Part shown: one piece after another, positions 2,739-10,775 of the stretch | How positions within the stretch are numbered: position 1 is the first letter of the stretch | Layout: every line of letters begins with the position of its first letter | Source of the DNA: Streptomyces phaeolivaceus | Lineage (GTDB): Bacteria > Actinomycetota > Actinomycetes > Streptomycetales > Streptomycetaceae | Reading direction: 5' to 3' | DNA: 64,000 nt | Assembly (NCBI RefSeq): GCF_009184865.1 | Contig: NZ_CP045096.1 | Location: 8,494,001-8,558,000 of the forward strand | The notes under the pieces: generated by a model | The model's input: the letters and a program-made list of their open reading frames with translations, nothing else | The model's database searches: none | What the model was told of the DNA's origin: nothing | Translations under genes and position numbers: made by a program

Positions 2739-5378
2739 TCAGCCGGCGACATGGCGCTCGATCCAGTCGGCGGCGGTCCGGCGGAAGAGCTTCCGGCTGT
2801 CCGCGCGCAGGAAGTCGTGGCCCTCGTCGCGCAGCATCAACAGCGCGGCCTGCAAACCGCGTTCGCGGGCCGCCCGGACGAACTGCTCGGACTCGCCGAG
2901 CGGCACATTGGTGTCGTGCTCGCCGTGGACCGTCAGGACGGGCACACGCAGCGCGTCGACCCGGGTCATCGGGGACAACTCCCGCAGCAGCTCCCGGTCG
3001 TGTTCCGGGTGCCCGTACTTGTGCGCGGCCGATTCCGCGATCCACGGCTCGGTGCCGGCGTAGAAGGTCGCGAAGTCGGACATGCCGCAGGCCGCGACGC
3101 CGGTGCGGAAGAGGGCCGGGTGCCACACCAGGGAGGCCATCACCAGATAGCCGCCGTACGAGCGGCCCATGACGGCGAGCCGGCGCGGATCGGCGAGACC
3201 GGCCACGACGACATGGGCCGCGCAGTCGGCGACGTCCTCGATCGCGGCGAACCGTCCCGTGCCGAGGTCGGCGTCGACGAACGACCGGCCGTGCCCCGAG
3301 GAGCCGCGCACATCCGGGGCGAAGATGTCCAGCCCCCGGCCCAGCAGTTCGTGGTAGAGCGGGTTGAACACCGGCCGTTCCTGCTCCTCCGGGCCGCCGT
3401 GCAGATGGATCACACAGGGCGCGGGCACCCCGGGGGCCCGGCCCGGCGCCCGGTAGTACCAGCCGCTCAGCGGCAGCCCGTCGCGGGCCGTCGGCCGCAG
3501 CGGCACCGGCCGTACGGGCGGGCGGCCGGGCGGCACGGCGTCCTCGTCCCGCGACGACCACGGGGTCCGCCGCGCGCTGCCCTCGGAGTACCACCACACC
3601 CCGGGGCGGCGCTGTGAGCCGGACAGCGCCAGCACCAGTCCCGCCCGGCCGCCGACCCGAGGGATACGGGTCACCACCTCGTGCGGCAGCGGCACGTTCC
3701 GCGGCGGCCCCGGCCGGGCCTCCCCGCCCTCCGAGTCGACGGTGACGACCTCCAGCTCGGTGGCCCCGCGCACGTTCCAGGCCAGGGCCGCGGTGTGTCC
3801 GTCGTGGCCGAAGGCCAGCAACTCCAGCCCGCAGTCGGCCCGTTCCGCCGCCACGGACAGGCCCCGCCGCTCCCCTTCGCCGTCCAGCCGTACGGCGAAC
3901 AGCGCGGCGAACTCGCGTGCCGCGTCGCTGCGCAGCCACAGCGTCCCGCCGTCCGGGGAGAACCGGCCGATCCATGGATCGCCGTCGGCGACATGCAGGG
4001 CGAACGTCGTCCGCAGATCCCCGGTCCGCACGACCAGGGCCTCACGCCGCCCGCGCGGCCCCCGCCGCACCAACGCCAGCCGCCCGTCCCGGCTGATGTC
4101 GCACACCCGCAGGGTGGCGGCGCCCCGCTCCACCGCCAACAGGGCGGGCGCGACGACACCGAGCGGATCCACGAGATAGGCCGCCAGCCCTCCACCGACG
4201 ACGCCGGTCCCGCCGCCTTCCTTCGAGGCCGCGCCGTCGCCCCGCCCGCCGTCACCGTCCCCGCCGTCACGTTCGGCGGGTACGCCGGCCGCCTCCGGTA
4301 CGCGGTCGGTGTCGGTCCCTCCCGGGGCGGTCCCTCCCGGTGTGCGGGCCGTCGGAGCGGCGTCGCCGTGGTGGGGGCCGCCCAGGAGTACGGCTCGGCC
4401 GTCCCGTGCGGTCCAGCCCGCCGGGCGGCGCGTGGTGTAGGTGCGCGGGTCGGCGAGGCCCGGCTCCGAGGGGACGGGCCTCTCTTCCGTCTCGGCGCCG
4501 CCCGGTGTGCGGACCGGCTCGGCGACGGTGACGGCCACCGCCGAGCCGTCGTACTGCCAGCAGCCCAGATACGCGGAGCTGCCGGGCTCGGCACCGGCGA
4601 GGACACGGCGTCCGGTGCCGTCGGGGCGGACGCACAGCACCCGGGTGTGTTCACCGCCGCCGGGAGCCGTGGTGTAGGCGATCCAGCGGCCGTCGGGCGA
4701 CCAGGCCACCTCCTTGACGGGGTGGGGATCGGAGTCCAGCAGATGGACCTCGTGTCCGTCGACCGGCCCGGTCCACAGCTGCGGAACCCCGCCCCGGTCG
4801 CAGATGAACGCGACATACCTGCCGCTCGGGTCCACGGACGGGTACCAGCAGCCGTGGGACCGCAGCGGCTGCGGGGTGTCCAGCGGCCCGGCGGTCCCGG
4901 GAAGCGGCACCGGCACGGGCGCGGTGAAGGCCGAGGCCGGCGCCGTGCCCGCACCGGCGGGGTTGCCGACCGCCCCGGCCGCGCCGACCGTTCCCACGGA
5001 GGTGGAGGTGGAGGTGGAGGTGGAGGTGGAGGCGTGGTCCGCGTACCGCCAAGGCATCCCGTCCATGACGTCCTCATCGACGGCGACGCGCGCGACGAAA
5101 CCGGCGCGCGGGAGCGCGGTGGTCGACGGGGCCGCCGAGACCGCCGGGGCCGATGGGGCGACCGGGGCCGATGGGGCCGCAGCCCCCGGTCCCGTTTTCT
5201 TTCCCGTCCCCTTTCCCGTTCCCGTCCGTGGGGCGCGGCCCTCCGGCGTACGGGACGTACTGGGTGTACTGGGCGCATGGGGCGCATGGGGCGTACGAGG
5301 CCCCGGCTCACGCTCCTGTCGCCCACGAGCCCCCTGCTCCTGGGCCCCCGGCGTACGCGCCCCGCGCTCCCCGGTCAC
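2739..5378 (-). CDS. S9 family (prolyl-oligopeptidase-like) serine peptidase
   Basis: This 879-residue protein has a long Pro/Gly/Thr/Ser-rich N-terminal segment, a middle region with PD40-type propeller repeats (for example AWSPDGRWIAYTT), and a C-terminal alpha/beta-hydrolase domain. The catalytic serine is in GRSYGGY (about residue 740), the aspartate in GEHDTNVP (about 819) and the histidine in DEGHDF (about 853). Family members cleave short peptides inside the cell. I chose the GTG at 5378 because it overlaps the TGA of the amidotransferase gene by 4 nt (GTGA); in-frame GTG 5426 and ATG 5402 are alternatives. The coupling suggests it processes or degrades a product of the preceding genes. 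No signal peptide is seen. The N-terminal region carries a Ser-Thr repeat encoded by a hexanucleotide array. Confidence 0.88.
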   Translation of the reverse strand: MTGERGARTPGAQEQGARGRQEREPGPRTPHAPHAPSTPSTSRTPEGRAPRTGTGKGTGKKTGPGAAAPSAPVAPSAPAVSAAPSTTALPRAGFVARVAVDEDVMDGMPWRYADHASTSTSTSTSTSVGTVGAAGAVGNPAGAGTAPASAFTAPVPVPLPGTAGPLDTPQPLRSHGCWYPSVDPSGRYVAFICDRGGVPQLWTGPVDGHEVHLLDSDPHPVKEVAWSPDGRWIAYTTAPGGGEHTRVLCVRPDGTGRRVLAGAEPGSSAYLGCWQYDGSAVAVTVAEPVRTPGGAETEERPVPSEPGLADPRTYTTRRPAGWTARDGRAVLLGGPHHGDAAPTARTPGGTAPGGTDTDRVPEAAGVPAERDGGDGDGGRGDGAASKEGGGTGVVGGGLAAYLVDPLGVVAPALLAVERGAATLRVCDISRDGRLALVRRGPRGRREALVVRTGDLRTTFALHVADGDPWIGRFSPDGGTLWLRSDAAREFAALFAVRLDGEGERRGLSVAAERADCGLELLAFGHDGHTAALAWNVRGATELEVVTVDSEGGEARPGPPRNVPLPHEVVTRIPRVGGRAGLVLALSGSQRRPGVWWYSEGSARRTPWSSRDEDAVPPGRPPVRPVPLRPTARDGLPLSGWYYRAPGRAPGVPAPCVIHLHGGPEEQERPVFNPLYHELLGRGLDIFAPDVRGSSGHGRSFVDADLGTGRFAAIEDVADCAAHVVVAGLADPRRLAVMGRSYGGYLVMASLVWHPALFRTGVAACGMSDFATFYAGTEPWIAESAAHKYGHPEHDRELLRELSPMTRVDALRVPVLTVHGEHDTNVPLGESEQFVRAARERGLQAALLMLRDEGHDFLRADSRKLFRRTAADWIERHVAG
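4998..5033. repeat. hexanucleotide array (GGAGGT)n inside the S9 peptidase gene
   Basis: Five perfect GGAGGT units and a partial sixth are read on the minus strand as alternating Ser-Thr codons. The 6-bp unit keeps the reading frame if the copy number changes, so it only alters linker length before the propeller domain. Confidence 0.9.
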
Positions 5379-7159
5379 CTGATCCCGTGCGTCTGCAGCC
5401 ATATCTCCAGCAGGGCTATCTGCCACAGCGCGTTCGCCCCGCGTCGGGTCCGGTGCTCGTCCGGTGCCGACAGCAGTTCGGCGACGTACGCGTCCTCGAA
5501 GACGCCGCGCGCCCTCGCCTCGGGCGCGGACAGGGCCTCCCGGACGCGTCCCAGCACGGGGCCGGCCATGTGCTTGACGGCGGGGACCGGGAAGTAGCCC
5601 TTGGGCCGGTCGACGACCTCGGCGGGCAGCACCCGGCGCCCGGCGGCCTTGAGGACGCCCTTCCCGCCGTCGGAGAGCTTCAGCTCCGGCGGGCAGACGG
5701 CGGCCAGCTCCACCAGCTCGTGGTCGAGGAACGGCACCCGGGCCTCCAGCCCCCAGTCCATCGTCATGTTGTCCACCCGCTTGACCGGATCGTCGACGAG
5801 CATCACCTCCGCGTCGAGCCGCAGCGCCGCGTCGAGCGCGGTCTCGGCCCCCGGACGCGCCATGTGCTCCCGTACGAACCGCCCGGACACATCGTGATCG
5901 GCCAGCACGGAGGGCCGCAGCACCCCGGTGAGGTCGGTGTGCGCCCGGTCGAAGTACGTCGTGGCGTACGCCTCGGCCGCGCGCTCCCGCGAAGCGACCG
6001 CCATGTCCGGATACCAGTGGTAACCGGCGAAGACCTCGTCCGCGCCCTGCCCGCTCTGGACGACCTTCACCTCCTTCGCCACCTGCTCCGCCAGCAGATG
6101 GAAGGCCACCACGTCATGGCTGATCATCGGCTCGCTCATCGCCGCGATCGCCGCGTCCAGCGCCGTCGACACCCGGTCCGAGGGCACCATCAGCTGATGG
6201 TGGGCCGTGCCGAAGTGCCGCGCGACCAGGTCGGACCAGCGGAACTCGTCACCCTCCTCACCACCCTCGGACTCGAACCCCACACTGAAGGTCGCGAGAT
6301 CCCGCTGCCCCTCGTCGGCCAGCAGCGCCACGATCAGACTGGAGTCGAGGCCGCCGGACAGCAGCACACCCACGGGCACGTCGGCCACCATGCGCCGGCG
6401 CACGGCGGTGCGCAGCGCGTCGAGCACCGCGTCCCGCCAGTCGTCGGCGCTCAGCCCCGCGTCCTCGGGCCGCCGGGTGTACGACGGCTGCCAGTAGCGG
6501 ATGTCGTGGTGGCGTCCGTCCGGCTCCACGACCCGCACGGTGGCCGCCGGCAGCTTGCGCACCCCGGCGAGGACGGTGCGCGGGGCGGCCACGGTGGCGT
6601 GCCAGCTCATGTACTGGTGCAATGCCACGGGGTCGAGCGAGGTGTCGACACCGCCGCCCGCCAGCAGCGACGGCAGCGAGGAGGCGAACCGCAGCCGCCC
6701 CGGCGCGTGCGCCAGATACAGCGGCTTGATGCCCAGCCGGTCACGGGCCAGCACCAGGCGTCCGGTGGCCTGTTCGGCGATCGCGAACGCGAACATGCCG
6801 TAGAACCGTTCGACGCAGGCGGTGCCCCACTGCTGGTACGCCTTGAGCACCACCTCGGTGTCGGAGCCGGAGAAGAAGCGATGGCCGAGACCCCGCAGCT
6901 CCGCGCGCAGCTCCTTGTAGTTGTAGACGCAGCCGTTGAAGACACCGGAGATCCGCCCGGCCGGGTCGGTCATCGGCTGGGCCCCGCACTCGGACAGATC
7001 GATGATCTTCAGCCGGCGGTGCCCCAGGGCGACGGCGCCCTGCGACCACAGGCCCCTGCCGTCCGGCCCTCGGGGGGCGAGGCGGTCGGTCATGCGCTCG
7101 ACGGCCGCCAGATCGGGCCGTCCGCCGTCGAAACGGATCTCACCGCAGAGACCGCACAT
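5375..7159 (-). CDS. asparagine-synthetase-like amidotransferase (N-acetylglutaminylglutamine amidotransferase type)
   Basis: This 594-residue protein starts MCGLCGE, giving the N-terminal Cys2 nucleophile of class II glutamine amidotransferases after Met removal. An RGPDG motif follows in the glutaminase domain. The C-terminal synthetase domain has the PP-loop SGGLDSS (about residue 268) that forms an acyl-adenylate. It most resembles the amidotransferase of the NAGGN osmolyte pathway (TIGR03104) by length and N-terminal sequence. The usual ngg ligase and M42 peptidase are absent here; instead a GCS2 ligase, a 47-residue peptide gene and an S9 peptidase surround it. Its ATG overlaps the peptide gene stop (TGATG) and its TGA overlaps the peptidase start (GTGA), so the three genes should be co-translated. 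AsnB homologues also close rings in lasso peptides, so peptide modification is possible. Confidence 0.88.
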   Translation of the reverse strand: MCGLCGEIRFDGGRPDLAAVERMTDRLAPRGPDGRGLWSQGAVALGHRRLKIIDLSECGAQPMTDPAGRISGVFNGCVYNYKELRAELRGLGHRFFSGSDTEVVLKAYQQWGTACVERFYGMFAFAIAEQATGRLVLARDRLGIKPLYLAHAPGRLRFASSLPSLLAGGGVDTSLDPVALHQYMSWHATVAAPRTVLAGVRKLPAATVRVVEPDGRHHDIRYWQPSYTRRPEDAGLSADDWRDAVLDALRTAVRRRMVADVPVGVLLSGGLDSSLIVALLADEGQRDLATFSVGFESEGGEEGDEFRWSDLVARHFGTAHHQLMVPSDRVSTALDAAIAAMSEPMISHDVVAFHLLAEQVAKEVKVVQSGQGADEVFAGYHWYPDMAVASRERAAEAYATTYFDRAHTDLTGVLRPSVLADHDVSGRFVREHMARPGAETALDAALRLDAEVMLVDDPVKRVDNMTMDWGLEARVPFLDHELVELAAVCPPELKLSDGGKGVLKAAGRRVLPAEVVDRPKGYFPVPAVKHMAGPVLGRVREALSAPEARARGVFEDAYVAELLSAPDEHRTRRGANALWQIALLEIWLQTHGIR

Positions 7160-7302
7160 CAGACCGCACCCCCTCGCTGGGGCGCGTTCGCGCCACTCGC
7201 GCCAGTCATGCCACTCGCGCCAGTCATGCCACTCGTGTCGCTCGTGTCGCTCATATCGCTGGTGTCACACGTATCGCTGTTGTCGCTCTTGCTGCTGGGC
7301 AT
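7159..7302 (-). CDS. 47-residue repetitive acidic peptide, candidate precursor peptide
   Basis: An ATG at 7302 is preceded by AAGGAG with 8-nt spacing, and the 47-codon frame ends in a TGA that overlaps the amidotransferase ATG by one base. The peptide starts MPSSKSDNSD, continues with repeated Asp-Thr-Ser triplets including one Cys, then has GMTGAS twice in tandem, and ends GANAPQRGGAV. The first half is strongly acidic; the C-terminal part is neutral to basic and Gly/Ala-rich. No similarity to a known family is recognised. Position and coupling suggest either a small leader whose translation sets amidotransferase expression, or a substrate for the ligase, amidotransferase and peptidase. It is too short to be found by most gene callers. 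The low-complexity composition weakens the case that it is functional protein. Confidence 0.55.
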   Translation of the reverse strand: MPSSKSDNSDTCDTSDMSDTSDTSGMTGASGMTGASGANAPQRGGAV

Positions 7303-7310
7303 GCGAGCCA

Positions 7311-7316
7311 CTCCTT
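7311..7316 (-). promoter_or_regulatory. strong ribosome binding site of the 47-residue peptide gene
   Basis: The minus strand reads AAGGAG eight bases before the ATG at 7302. It is one of the better Shine-Dalgarno matches in the window and decides the start of the small gene. Confidence 0.7.
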
Positions 7317-7405
7317 GATCACCGGGGCACCGGGCACCACAGCGGGGACGGCGGTCGGCGGACGGCGGCCGGAACCGGCCTGACCAGTCCGCACCGCCAC
7401 GCGGA

Positions 7406-8605
7406 TCAGCCGCCGACGGACTCCACCGAGTACGCCGCCGAGGCCTCGGGCGGACCCGCCCCGGCCGCCGCGACGGGCCGCCGGCGCACGGCCGGGGCCG
7501 CTCCGGGACCGCCGCTCCGCCCCCGCTCGCCCCGGGTCTCGGCGGCCAGCGCCCCGACACAGGCGGGCAGGCCCTCCTCCTCGGCGACCCCGCGCAGCCG
7601 ATGCGCCGCGCTGCCCCTGGCCAGGGCCTCCTCCAGGAGCACACGTACGGTGTCCCAGTCGCCCTGGGCCTCCAGGACCGGGCGCAGCCGACGGAGCATG
7701 TCGCGCAGGACGGTCGGGGCGGGCGCGGCGCGACGGGTCTCCGGATCGACCAGATCGCCCTCCAGACCCGACTGGGCCGCCCGCCACATCGCGGCCCGAA
7801 GCCATTCGTGCCGTCCGTCGCAGACCCACCCGGGCCGCTCCAGCCGGACCCGCGCGTCCTCGACCAGGGCCCGGAACAGCCCGGCGATGAGCACGACTGT
7901 CTCGGTGCGCGGACTGGCGTCGCAGACGCGAAGCTCCAGGGTCCGCTGGTGCTCGCTGGGCCGCAGGTCGTAGTAGACCATCCCCGAGTCCTTGATCACG
8001 CCGGACCGGATCAGTCCCTCGACGGCGGCGTCGTAGTCGGCGGCCCCGGCGAAGCAGCCGACCGGCCCCGCGGTGGGCCAGCGCTGCCACAGCATCGTCC
8101 GCCAGCTCGCGTACCCCGTGTCCGCGCCGAGCCAGAACGGCGAGCTGGCGGACAGGGCCAGCAGCGGCGGCAGCCACGGCGAGACCGCGCACATGATCCG
8201 TACGGCAGTGTCCCGGTCGGGCACGTCGACATGGACCTGCGCGCTGCACACCAGATGCTCGTCGGCGACCCGGCGGTACTCGTCGACCATGTGCCGGTAA
8301 CGGAAGTCCGGGGTGGCGTCACCGGGCGTCAGCCGTGCGAACGGTACGGTTCCGGCCGCGACGACGGCGAGGCCCAGCCCGGAGGCCGCCGCGTCCAGTC
8401 GCCGCCGGGCGCCGGACAGGTCGGCGTGCAGGGAGTCCAGCGAGTCGTGCACCAGGCTGTTCCACTCCACCGCCGACCGCTGAAGCTCGGTCTTGAACTC
8501 GGATCCGCGCAATCGACCGAGGACCGTACCGGCTCCTGGGACCAATCGACCGCTCTCCGCGTCCAGAACATGGAACTCTTCCTCTACGCCCACACGAACG
8601 GTCAC
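7406..8605 (-). CDS. carboxylate-amine ligase, GCS2/YbdK family
   Basis: This 399-residue protein matches the glutamate-cysteine ligase type 2 family: VGVEEEFHVLD at the N-terminus holds the metal- and nucleotide-binding glutamates, and HVDVPD and TLELRVCDASP are further family motifs. YbdK members join an amine to a carboxylate (weak gamma-glutamylcysteine ligase activity is known), but the natural substrates of many are unknown. I chose GTG 8605 because GGGAGAGG lies just upstream and the family motif starts seven residues in; the frame stays open to 8704. The C-terminus ends in an Ala/Pro/Arg-rich tail. The 47-residue peptide gene begins 103 nt downstream, so this is probably the first gene of the operon. 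Confidence 0.87.
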   Translation of the reverse strand: MTVRVGVEEEFHVLDAESGRLVPGAGTVLGRLRGSEFKTELQRSAVEWNSLVHDSLDSLHADLSGARRRLDAAASGLGLAVVAAGTVPFARLTPGDATPDFRYRHMVDEYRRVADEHLVCSAQVHVDVPDRDTAVRIMCAVSPWLPPLLALSASSPFWLGADTGYASWRTMLWQRWPTAGPVGCFAGAADYDAAVEGLIRSGVIKDSGMVYYDLRPSEHQRTLELRVCDASPRTETVVLIAGLFRALVEDARVRLERPGWVCDGRHEWLRAAMWRAAQSGLEGDLVDPETRRAAPAPTVLRDMLRRLRPVLEAQGDWDTVRVLLEEALARGSAAHRLRGVAEEEGLPACVGALAAETRGERGRSGGPGAAPAVRRRPVAAAGAGPPEASAAYSVESVGG

Positions 8606-9405: not shown

Positions 9406-10775
9406 GCGTGACGGATGGTCGGCGGTCTCGTTGGTATGACTGTGTGCTGATGCGCTGACGGTTGAGCAGGTCGAGTCGTGGTCCGAGGGGGTGGCCGGGC
9501 TCCATGCCCGGTTCGCCCACCGTTTCGGCAGGTCGGAGCCCCGCGAGCGGGCGCTGGACTACCTGAACGGACTCGTCGCGCCGCTGGAGAAGAAGAACGG
9601 GTGGACGCTGTCCGAGCAGGTCGGGCAGCTCCGCCCGGACGGCGTCCAGCGCCTGCTCAACCACTCCGACTGGGACGAGAACGCGGTCCGCGACGATGTG
9701 CGCGACTTCGTCGTGGAGACCATCGGAGCCAAGAACGCGGTCCTGATCTGCGACGACACCGGTTTCCTGAAGAAGGGCACCAAGTCCGCCGGAGTCCAGC
9801 GGCAGTACACAGGTACCGCCGGCCGCACGGAGAACTGCCAGATCGGGACCTTCCTGGCCTACGCCTCCGCCAGGGGGCGGGCATTGATCGACCGTGAGCT
9901 CTACATCCCCGTTTCCTGGACGGATGACCGTGAGCGCTGCCGCGCAGCCGGGATCGACGACGAGATCCCCTTCGCGACCAAGAATGAGCACTGCAAGTGG
10001 ATGCTGCAACGTGCCGTCGACGCAGGCATCCCGTTCGCGTGGGTCACCGCTGACGAGGCATACGGGCAGGTCAAGCACCTGCGGGTATGGCTGGAGGAAC
10101 GCAGGATCGCGCACGTACTGGCCACCAAGGTCAACGACACCGTGACCACGGCGGACGGCGGCGACGCCAGGGTGGACCAGTTGGTCGCCGCCCTGCCCAG
10201 GCAAGCGTGGAAGCGGGTTTCCGGGGGCCAGGGCGCGCACGGCGAACGGATCTACGACTGGGCCCGCGTCGCCATCCGCCCGTACTGGGAGAACGGCTTC
10301 GGGCACTGGGTTCTGGCCCGCCGCAGCATCAGCGACCCCACCGAGATCGCCTACTACGTCTGCTACGGATCGGTGGCCTCCCGGCTGAAAGACCTGGTCA
10401 AGGTAGCCGCCGCGAGGTGGGCGGTGGAGGAGTGCTTCCAGACCGCCAAGGGCGAGTGCGGCCTGGACCACTACCAGGTGAGGCTCTACCGGGCCTGGTA
10501 CCGCCACATCACCCTGGCCATGGCCGCCCTCGCCTACCTGACCGCCGTCCGCGCCGCAGAAGCCGCAAAAGGGGCGGAGCGGACGACGGGCAAGACCTCA
10601 TACCCCTCAGCGTCCCGGAGATCCGCCGACTGATCGGCCACATCATCGTCACGCCCCGCCACCACAGCAACGACCATCATCTGCACTGGTCACGCTTCCG
10701 ACGACGCAGCCAGGCCCGTGCCCGCCGCTCCCACTACAAACGCCGAGGCCACAACCCGCAGATGCGGTTGCAGTA
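9389..10775 (+). mobile_element. IS701-family insertion sequence
   Basis: A 1387-bp element is bounded by perfect 17-bp terminal inverted repeats (TACTGCAACCGCATCTG) and flanked by CTAG on both sides, the 4-bp target duplication typical of IS701 elements. It encodes one DDE transposase whose 3' end is frameshifted. It lies between two genes, and its right CTAG carries the TAG stop of the leftward Atu4866-type gene, so the insertion cut next to that stop without breaking the gene. Confidence 0.9.

Follow-up and report, generated by a model that had tools for sequence, protein, structure and literature searches.

Organization of the locus

We analysed a 64,000-nt stretch of the Streptomyces phaeolivaceus genome (contig NZ_CP045096.1, positions 8,494,001 to 8,558,000), hereafter the window, whose own numbering is used below. 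The genome comprises 10.18 Mb in two contigs. The subject of this work is a minus-strand operon in which a GCS2 carboxylate-amine ligase, a 47-codon open reading frame (ORF), an AsnO-type amidotransferase and an S9 serine peptidase follow one another:

7406..8605, minus strand: GCS2 (YbdK-type) carboxylate-amine ligase, 399 aa, GTG start, PF04107 at 2.4e-51
7159..7302, minus strand: putative bridging ORF, 47 codons (47 aa), ATG after an AAGGAG Shine-Dalgarno (SD) sequence, TGATG junction with asnO
5375..7159, minus strand: AsnO, predicted glutamine-dependent dipeptide C-terminal amidotransferase, 594 aa, TIGR03104
2739..5426 (longest ORF), minus strand: S9 (prolyl-oligopeptidase/acylaminoacyl-peptidase-like) serine peptidase, PF00326 at 8e-39

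The ligase, the small ORF and the amidotransferase were all confirmed where the initial annotation had placed them. It had also described a strong ribosome-binding site before the small ORF and a 1-nt overlap with the amidotransferase gene. Both were found: AAGGAG precedes the ATG, and the TGA of the small ORF shares one base with the ATG of asnO (TGATG). The spacer between GCS2 and asnO is 246 nt in the window.

The S9 ORF is real as well, but the 4-nt GTGA overlap with asnO that had been assigned to it holds only if the peptidase starts at the in-frame GTG 5378, which corresponds to residue 17 in the long ORF. GTG 5426 opens the longest ORF, which overlaps asnO by 52 nt; a start further downstream is a third possibility. 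The match of relatives to the long ORF begins at about residues 150-190 in most cases and earlier in a minority, down to residue 1, which makes any start assignment tentative. The first 165 or so residues are of low complexity and rich in repeats, including a TSTSTSTST run, and are unmatched in most relatives. By sequence, the nearest solved structures are the S9 peptidase 8wt1 and acylaminoacyl peptidases such as 5l8s and 1ve6.

The amidotransferase belongs to the AsnO family of the NAGGN pathway

The osmolyte N-acetylglutaminylglutamine amide (NAGGN) is made by the asnO-ngg-M42 system of Sinorhizobium, Pseudomonas (PA3459-PA3461) and Azospirillum. In the Azospirillum cluster, the order of the genes is asnO-ngg-M42. 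Passages of PMC8070244 describe the classical pathway, in which a first Gln is acetylated and linked to another by Ngg, after which AsnO amidates the product; they also describe the Pseudomonas operon as osmotically induced and its mutants as far slower to grow at high osmolarity.

The window amidotransferase scored 960.2 bits against TIGR03104 (N-acetylglutaminylglutamine amidotransferase; cut-off 570.1) and passed by 390 bits. Its score against the general asparagine synthase model was 422 bits (cut-off 267). Among the matches listed, its identity to the Sinorhizobium meliloti protein was 60.7% and that to Azospirillum proteins 60.9-62.6%, and the best matches among genome contigs came from Streptomyces (stelliscabiei, neyagawaensis, scabiei, europaeiscabiei and others) with 89-91% identity. 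The protein carries SGGLDSS at 268, SGQGADEVFAGY at 369, RPKGYF at 518 and an N-terminal MCG, motifs whose catalytic roles we take to be those of the AsnB family.

AsnO sequences of the GCS2 type (n=32) were compared with those of the Ngg type (n=23); the former include 11 without an adjacent GCS2, since such loci, except L134, were counted in the GCS2 group. More than 95% conservation in both types was found at 202 positions. Only three positions (535, 570 and 575) were type-specific, all in the C-terminal 60 residues and none in the named motifs, and they were discarded as a clue to a different acceptor. Because the type-specific positions are so few, the acceptor is probably the same or very similar in both types, and we infer that it is the C-terminal carboxylate of a Gln-Gln-like dipeptide.

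In the AsnO tree, the GCS2-type sequences grouped together (support 96/89). Inside this group lay 11 Streptomycetaceae sequences without an adjacent GCS2; five clustered and the others were scattered, a pattern which suggests that GCS2 was lost several times. The tree held all of 10 chosen loci without GCS2 and about every sixth of the others, and its proportions carry no meaning.

Ngg is not found, and GCS2 and S9 adjoin AsnO

No match over the TIGR03103 (Ngg) cut-off was found in this genome, the best reaching 32.1 bits versus 569. The five partial matches below the threshold (20.8-32.1 bits) were at a level similar to that in all 14 control genomes. Among 199 Streptomyces genomes, 41 had AsnO over the cut-off and none had Ngg at E<=1e-30, with the 6 best candidates per genome scored.

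A wider sample of 346 Actinomycetota genomes contained 37 with AsnO over the cut-off and 25 with Ngg, of which 23 passed the cut-off and 2 were cut or split; all 25 were among the 37. Seven of the 12 Ngg-less AsnO genomes (G000, G013, G067, G107, G133, G283 and G498) had a window-type GCS2 beside AsnO, which in G283 and G498 was fused to a circularly permuted (CP) ATP-grasp domain. Ngg and an AsnO-adjacent GCS2 did not occur together in any of the 37 AsnO genomes (hypergeometric 7.7e-5, kinship ignored; the counts are not independent, because the seven GCS2 genomes come from two genera). No GCS2 near AsnO was present in the 25 Ngg genomes among the matches listed.

Other Ngg-less arrangements were also observed. 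G317 has a divergent GCS2 directly upstream of AsnO and no Ngg. G273, G325 and G428 are AsnO genomes with a CP ATP-grasp, identified by Pfam in the first two and by resemblance in the third. A divergent GCS2 is present in G325 as well, and G428 has a split ORF that resembles it. In the corresponding loci of these three f18 genomes (L131, L132 and L133), AsnO adjoins a CP type 2 ATP-grasp; L132 also carries DUF1028 (Pfam), and L131 an ORF resembling DUF1028. In G488 (L134), AsnO overlaps an S9 peptidase and a DUF4442 ORF lies upstream, with no recognised ligase in the 19-kb stretch.

We then examined 81 Streptomycetaceae loci (80 and the window). GCS2 lay upstream of AsnO in 62 and not in 16, and three contigs were too short, which gives 62 of 78 informative loci; L047 was counted as positive, though its GCS2 frame runs without a stop before asnO. 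According to the gene calls of this analysis, an S9 family member follows AsnO in 73 of 80 loci. Beyond AsnO, S9 and GCS2, no family was common to more than 15 of the 80 loci.

The initial annotation had suggested that the S9 enzyme replaces the M42 peptidase. This idea gained support, as GCS2 and S9 are the neighbours of AsnO where Azospirillum has Ngg and M42. A tblastn search with the Azospirillum M42 protein gave no match in 85 loci (80 of them Streptomycetaceae), and blastp against the gene calls of 154 loci (including the first 16 kb of the window) matched only Azospirillum itself and L154.

The trio was also found in other lineages. Nonomuraea has GCS2, a 10-nt spacer, AsnO and S9; in Embleya, GCS2 overlaps AsnO by 13 nt and S9 follows. 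Three f39 genomes (L128, L129 and L130) carry GCS2 fused to a CP ATP-grasp (893-917 aa), and the fusions in L128 and L129 precede AsnO and S9; one of these two genomes is named as a Euzebyales metagenome-assembled genome. The best 120 of 2023 relatives of the fusion all had both domains, and many carried names from the actinobacteria (Cryptosporangium, Actinoplanes and others). Just 3 of the 346 genomes in the phylum sample had the fusion at E<=1e-120.

The AsnO-linked GCS2 ligases form a distinct clade

The window ligase scored 260.6 bits against TIGR02050 (YbdK family; cut-off 176.4). An EgtA-type ligase (TIGR03444) was rejected at 21.1 bits versus a cut-off of 370.8. All AsnO-linked GCS2s except the divergent one of G317 formed one clade (support 100/100, and 100/99 with two sequences added), most of whose members are linked to AsnO. 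The first tree included every fourth of loci L003-L082 with a linked GCS2, and the tree with the two extra sequences was built without the long branches L135, L150 and L151. Across the 346 genomes, AsnO was present in 7 of 9 with a clade GCS2 versus 30 of 337 without (Fisher p 2.8e-6, kinship ignored).

We aligned 28 linked-clade and 23 other GCS2 sequences. Like E. coli YbdK (PDB 1r8g), the window ligase belongs to PF04107. Of the 37 positions conserved at 95% or more in both groups, it retains the residue at 36, the exception being Q for R at 278. Unlike YbdK, it sits in a distinct clade with residues of its own, such as F11, H12, N49, S154, H219 and L225. Several of these adjoin family-conserved positions: F11 and H12 lie beside E8-E10, N49 near E47, S154 beside S155, and L225 between E224 and R226. 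This closeness suggests that the clade has its own substrate. The GCS2 copies of Mycobacterium branderi and NBC_01309 carry most of the clade-specific residues, so these residues are no mark of AsnO linkage. The M. branderi copy (L179) lies by CsbD and DUF5994 genes.

A predicted dipeptide-amide pathway

The initial annotation had offered a NAGGN-like dipeptide amide as one of two possible products. This proposal is strengthened by the wide margin of the AsnO score, together with the lack of an Ngg match. In the pathway that we propose, the GCS2/YbdK ligase would spend ATP to link a pair of amino acids into a dipeptide, Glu or Gln with Gln being the likeliest combination. AsnO would adenylate the C-terminal carboxylate of the dipeptide and turn it into a carboxamide with glutamine as the donor. 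The neutral dipeptide amide could act as a compatible solute or stress metabolite, and the S9 peptidase would hydrolyse it once it is no longer needed, the same part that is assumed for M42 in the classical cluster.

We see an even chance that the operon encodes a variant of the NAGGN pathway without Ngg, with a swapped ligase, a swapped peptidase and a bridging ORF that matters without its product. Judged from the gene content, Streptomyces with this operon probably make a related dipeptide amide. The predicted system is of a known kind, the NAGGN-type pathway; what appears new is the pairing of AsnO with a different ligase and a different peptidase, plus the product-free bridging ORF. More tentatively, AsnO may be the hub of modular dipeptide-amide pathways in Actinomycetota with swappable ligases (Ngg, GCS2, the GCS2-CP-ATP-grasp fusion or a CP ATP-grasp alone) and swappable hydrolases (M42, S9 or DUF1028), and the Streptomyces GCS2 form might then lead to an undescribed dipeptide amide, probably without an acetyl group, that acts as a compatible solute.

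The operon and the NAGGN system have in common an AsnO orthologue (60.7-62.6% identity) and a three-gene logic of ligase, amidotransferase and peptidase. They differ in that the window has GCS2 and S9, with Ngg (GNAT and ATP-grasp) not found and no M42 nearby, in the order of the genes (ligase-AsnO-peptidase), and in the lack of a conserved linked acetyltransferase. In the GCS2-CP-ATP-grasp fusions, which are annotated as carboxylate--amine ligase/circularly permuted type 2 ATP-grasp, the GCS2 half of the f39 proteins falls in the window clade, whereas the window GCS2 is a single-domain protein.

Among the matches listed, judged by titles and the beginnings of abstracts, no open-access paper describes a GCS2-AsnO-S9 set. 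Micromonospora provocatoris is described as a NAGGN producer with predicted asnO and ngg genes (PMC8146288), NAGGN clusters of Micromonospora are discussed (PMC11537254, PMC10513789), and ABAGG, the osmolyte of PMC10513789, is not a dipeptide amide. A table of SigF-dependent genes of M. smegmatis includes MSMEG_2594, named as an asparagine synthase, and MSMEG_5590, named as a carboxylate-amine ligase (PMC4694148). In pseudouridimycin biosynthesis, the addition of Gln is ascribed to PumK, which is presented as a carboxylate-amine ligase without mention of its protein family (PMC7955054).

Three plasmid records name Streptomyces AsnO proteins N-acetylglutaminylglutamine amidotransferase. This name implies a product that, by the known route, seems out of reach for these genomes. 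In roughly one in five of the Streptomyces sampled (the 41 of 199 with AsnO), the locus hints at an osmolyte-type metabolite that has escaped recognition, and it points to a substrate for a GCS2 clade that lacks an assigned function.

Several observations weigh against the proposed pathway. AsnO-S9 occurs without an adjacent GCS2 in 16 of the 78 informative Streptomycetaceae loci and, by annotation, on the plasmids of Streptomyces NBC_01001 and NBC_01276. Of the 16 genomes, 15 hold only GCS2 matches of 35-41% identity, judged by that identity to be paralogues, which counts most heavily against a simple replacement of Ngg by GCS2; the genome of L028 has a 70% GCS2 match elsewhere. Conversely, clade GCS2s were found without AsnO nearby in G087 (L136), on a M. 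branderi plasmid (L179) and on a plasmid of Streptomycetaceae NBC_01309 (L180), and in G507, the third f39 genome, a GCS2 inside the clade is fused to a CP ATP-grasp, with AsnO not found in that genome. No acetyltransferase family was conserved and linked across the 80 loci. Control by a stress sigma factor was rejected: the sigma-B/F-type pattern GnnT-N13-17-GGGTA was found upstream of GCS2 in 4 of 63 loci versus 2.0 in shuffled sequences, which is no enrichment.

It is unlikely, though worth considering, that the operon yields NAGGN itself. A ligase, GCS2 or some other, would then join Gln to N-acetyl-Gln or Gln, an unlinked N-acetyltransferase would contribute the acetyl group, AsnO would complete the compound as in the classical pathway, and the acylaminoacyl-peptidase-like S9 enzyme would remove N-acetyl-Gln. 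The two AsnO types are nearly indistinguishable by position, and acylaminoacyl peptidases are among the nearest S9 structures, both of which fit this idea. It is opposed by the lack of a conserved linked acetyltransferase family and by the TIGR03103 matches of this genome, whose level (20.8-32.1 bits) was also reached in 14 of 14 control genomes; nor was a report of NAGGN from Streptomyces evident among the matches listed, by their titles and abstract beginnings.

Another explanation, to which we give a low probability, is that the functional pair consists of AsnO and S9, with GCS2 a separate enzyme that often accompanies them and another ligase, for example a YbdK paralogue, making the peptide that AsnO amidates. 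The 16 loci without an adjacent GCS2, with only paralogue-level GCS2 in 15 of their genomes, speak for it, as do the AsnO-S9 pair of G488, with no recognised ligase in its 19-kb stretch, and the clade GCS2s away from AsnO. Against it stand the adjacency in 62 of 78 loci, which recurs in Nonomuraea, Embleya and f39, the lack of overlap with Ngg genomes, and the association of clade GCS2 with AsnO (the Fisher test above, in which kinship is ignored).

The ORF between GCS2 and asnO

In the proposed Ngg-less pathway, the 47-codon ORF would bring ribosomes over the 246-nt spacer to the TGATG start of asnO. Among loci with a GCS2-asnO spacer of 130-300 nt, an ORF of 19 codons or more, opened by ATG or GTG and preceded by an SD of -8 kcal/mol or better, was found in the same frame before asnO in 53 of 58; 30 dinucleotide shuffles gave 2.9 of 58 on average and 5 at most. 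Of 61 loci examined for the stop, 33 had it at +1 over the asnO start (TGATG), 27 at +13 inside asnO and 1 elsewhere. The length ranged from 19 to 60 residues with a median of 35 (59 loci).

The peptide itself appeared to drift. In 22 non-overlapping close pairs of relatives, the ratio of nonsynonymous to synonymous substitution (dN/dS) was 0.85 (bootstrap 0.64-1.24) for the small ORF versus 0.16 (0.14-0.18) for AsnO, with no identity filter applied. In 86 overlapping pairs, which remained from 97 close pairs after 11 with less than 45% peptide identity were dropped, the values were 0.87 versus 0.18, and the differences at codon positions 1/2/3 were 532/506/571. Pairs with fewer than 18 aligned codons were also dropped. 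These counts exclude L049, for which an implausible start had been chosen, and L040, L047, L070, L093 and L095, in which no ORF was found, and the window ORF is in no pair. The initial annotation had proposed comparing the small ORF across species and had named a ratio of about 1 as a refuting result; its position was kept among relatives, but its sequence was close to neutral, and the reading as a peptide precursor thus failed this test.

No conserved core was visible in the peptides across loci, and the window peptide had no homologue at E<=0.1 among 5.8 billion proteins, a search that is weak for so short a query. The G+C content at second codon positions (GC2) was 0.76, unlike ordinary proteins and versus 0.46 for AsnO. 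The Asp-rich stretch of the window ORF consists of 9/18-bp tandem repeats covering 7188-7288, a local expansion. The spacers of Nonomuraea (10 nt) and Embleya (-13 nt) leave no room for the ORF, and both carry GCS2-AsnO-S9.

The small ORF shows the features of a leader ORF, namely a conserved start and SD, a stop that falls on the start of the following gene or slightly within it, and a free sequence. It seems to be selected for translation up to asnO and not for its product, and would be a clear example of an ORF conserved for being translated. Its role is likely translational coupling or the shielding of a long spacer from early termination. By the same measure, the SD of asnO (-14.3 kcal/mol) is good in its own right beside that of the small ORF (-8.6 kcal/mol), so the coupling need not be absolute.

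It is improbable that the ORF goes beyond a mere bridge and encodes either a functional, fast-evolving microprotein or a leader peptide with a regulatory role, such as ribosome arrest. This reading is favoured by the bias M-(S/P)-(S/T)-S at the N-terminus, by ORFs of a similar kind in L010 and L058, where no GCS2 is adjacent, and by the lower bound of dN/dS (0.64), which allows weak constraint; yet the dN/dS interval spans 1, GC2 is far from that of AsnO, and both the length and the residues past the start vary freely.

The other product offered by the initial annotation, a ribosomally synthesized and post-translationally modified peptide in which the Asp-rich 47-residue peptide is modified by GCS2 and AsnO and cleaved by S9, agrees with a translatable ORF of conserved position, but was rejected, with hardly any probability left to it, on the drift of the sequence, the repeat-expanded Asp stretch of the window copy, the lack of a homologue at E<=0.1 (in a search weak for so short a query) and of a conserved precursor, the missing ORF in the tight operons of Embleya and Nonomuraea, and scores far under the cut-offs of the lasso cyclase (NF033535, 207.6 versus 525 bits) and isopeptidase (NF033523, 57.6 versus 400 bits) models. 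The AsnB-like and S9 enzymes share distant homology with those of lasso peptide clusters.

Sequences upstream of the operon

A GGGAA(C/G)TC element or a near variant was found upstream of GCS2 in 38 of 63 loci, almost always 45-105 nt before the gene. The copy in the window lies at about 8680 on the minus strand and is a candidate promoter part. Near the upstream side of the operon, positions 9491-10633 on the plus strand hold a 380-aa ORF that gives the impression, by its sequence, of an insertion-sequence-type transposase.

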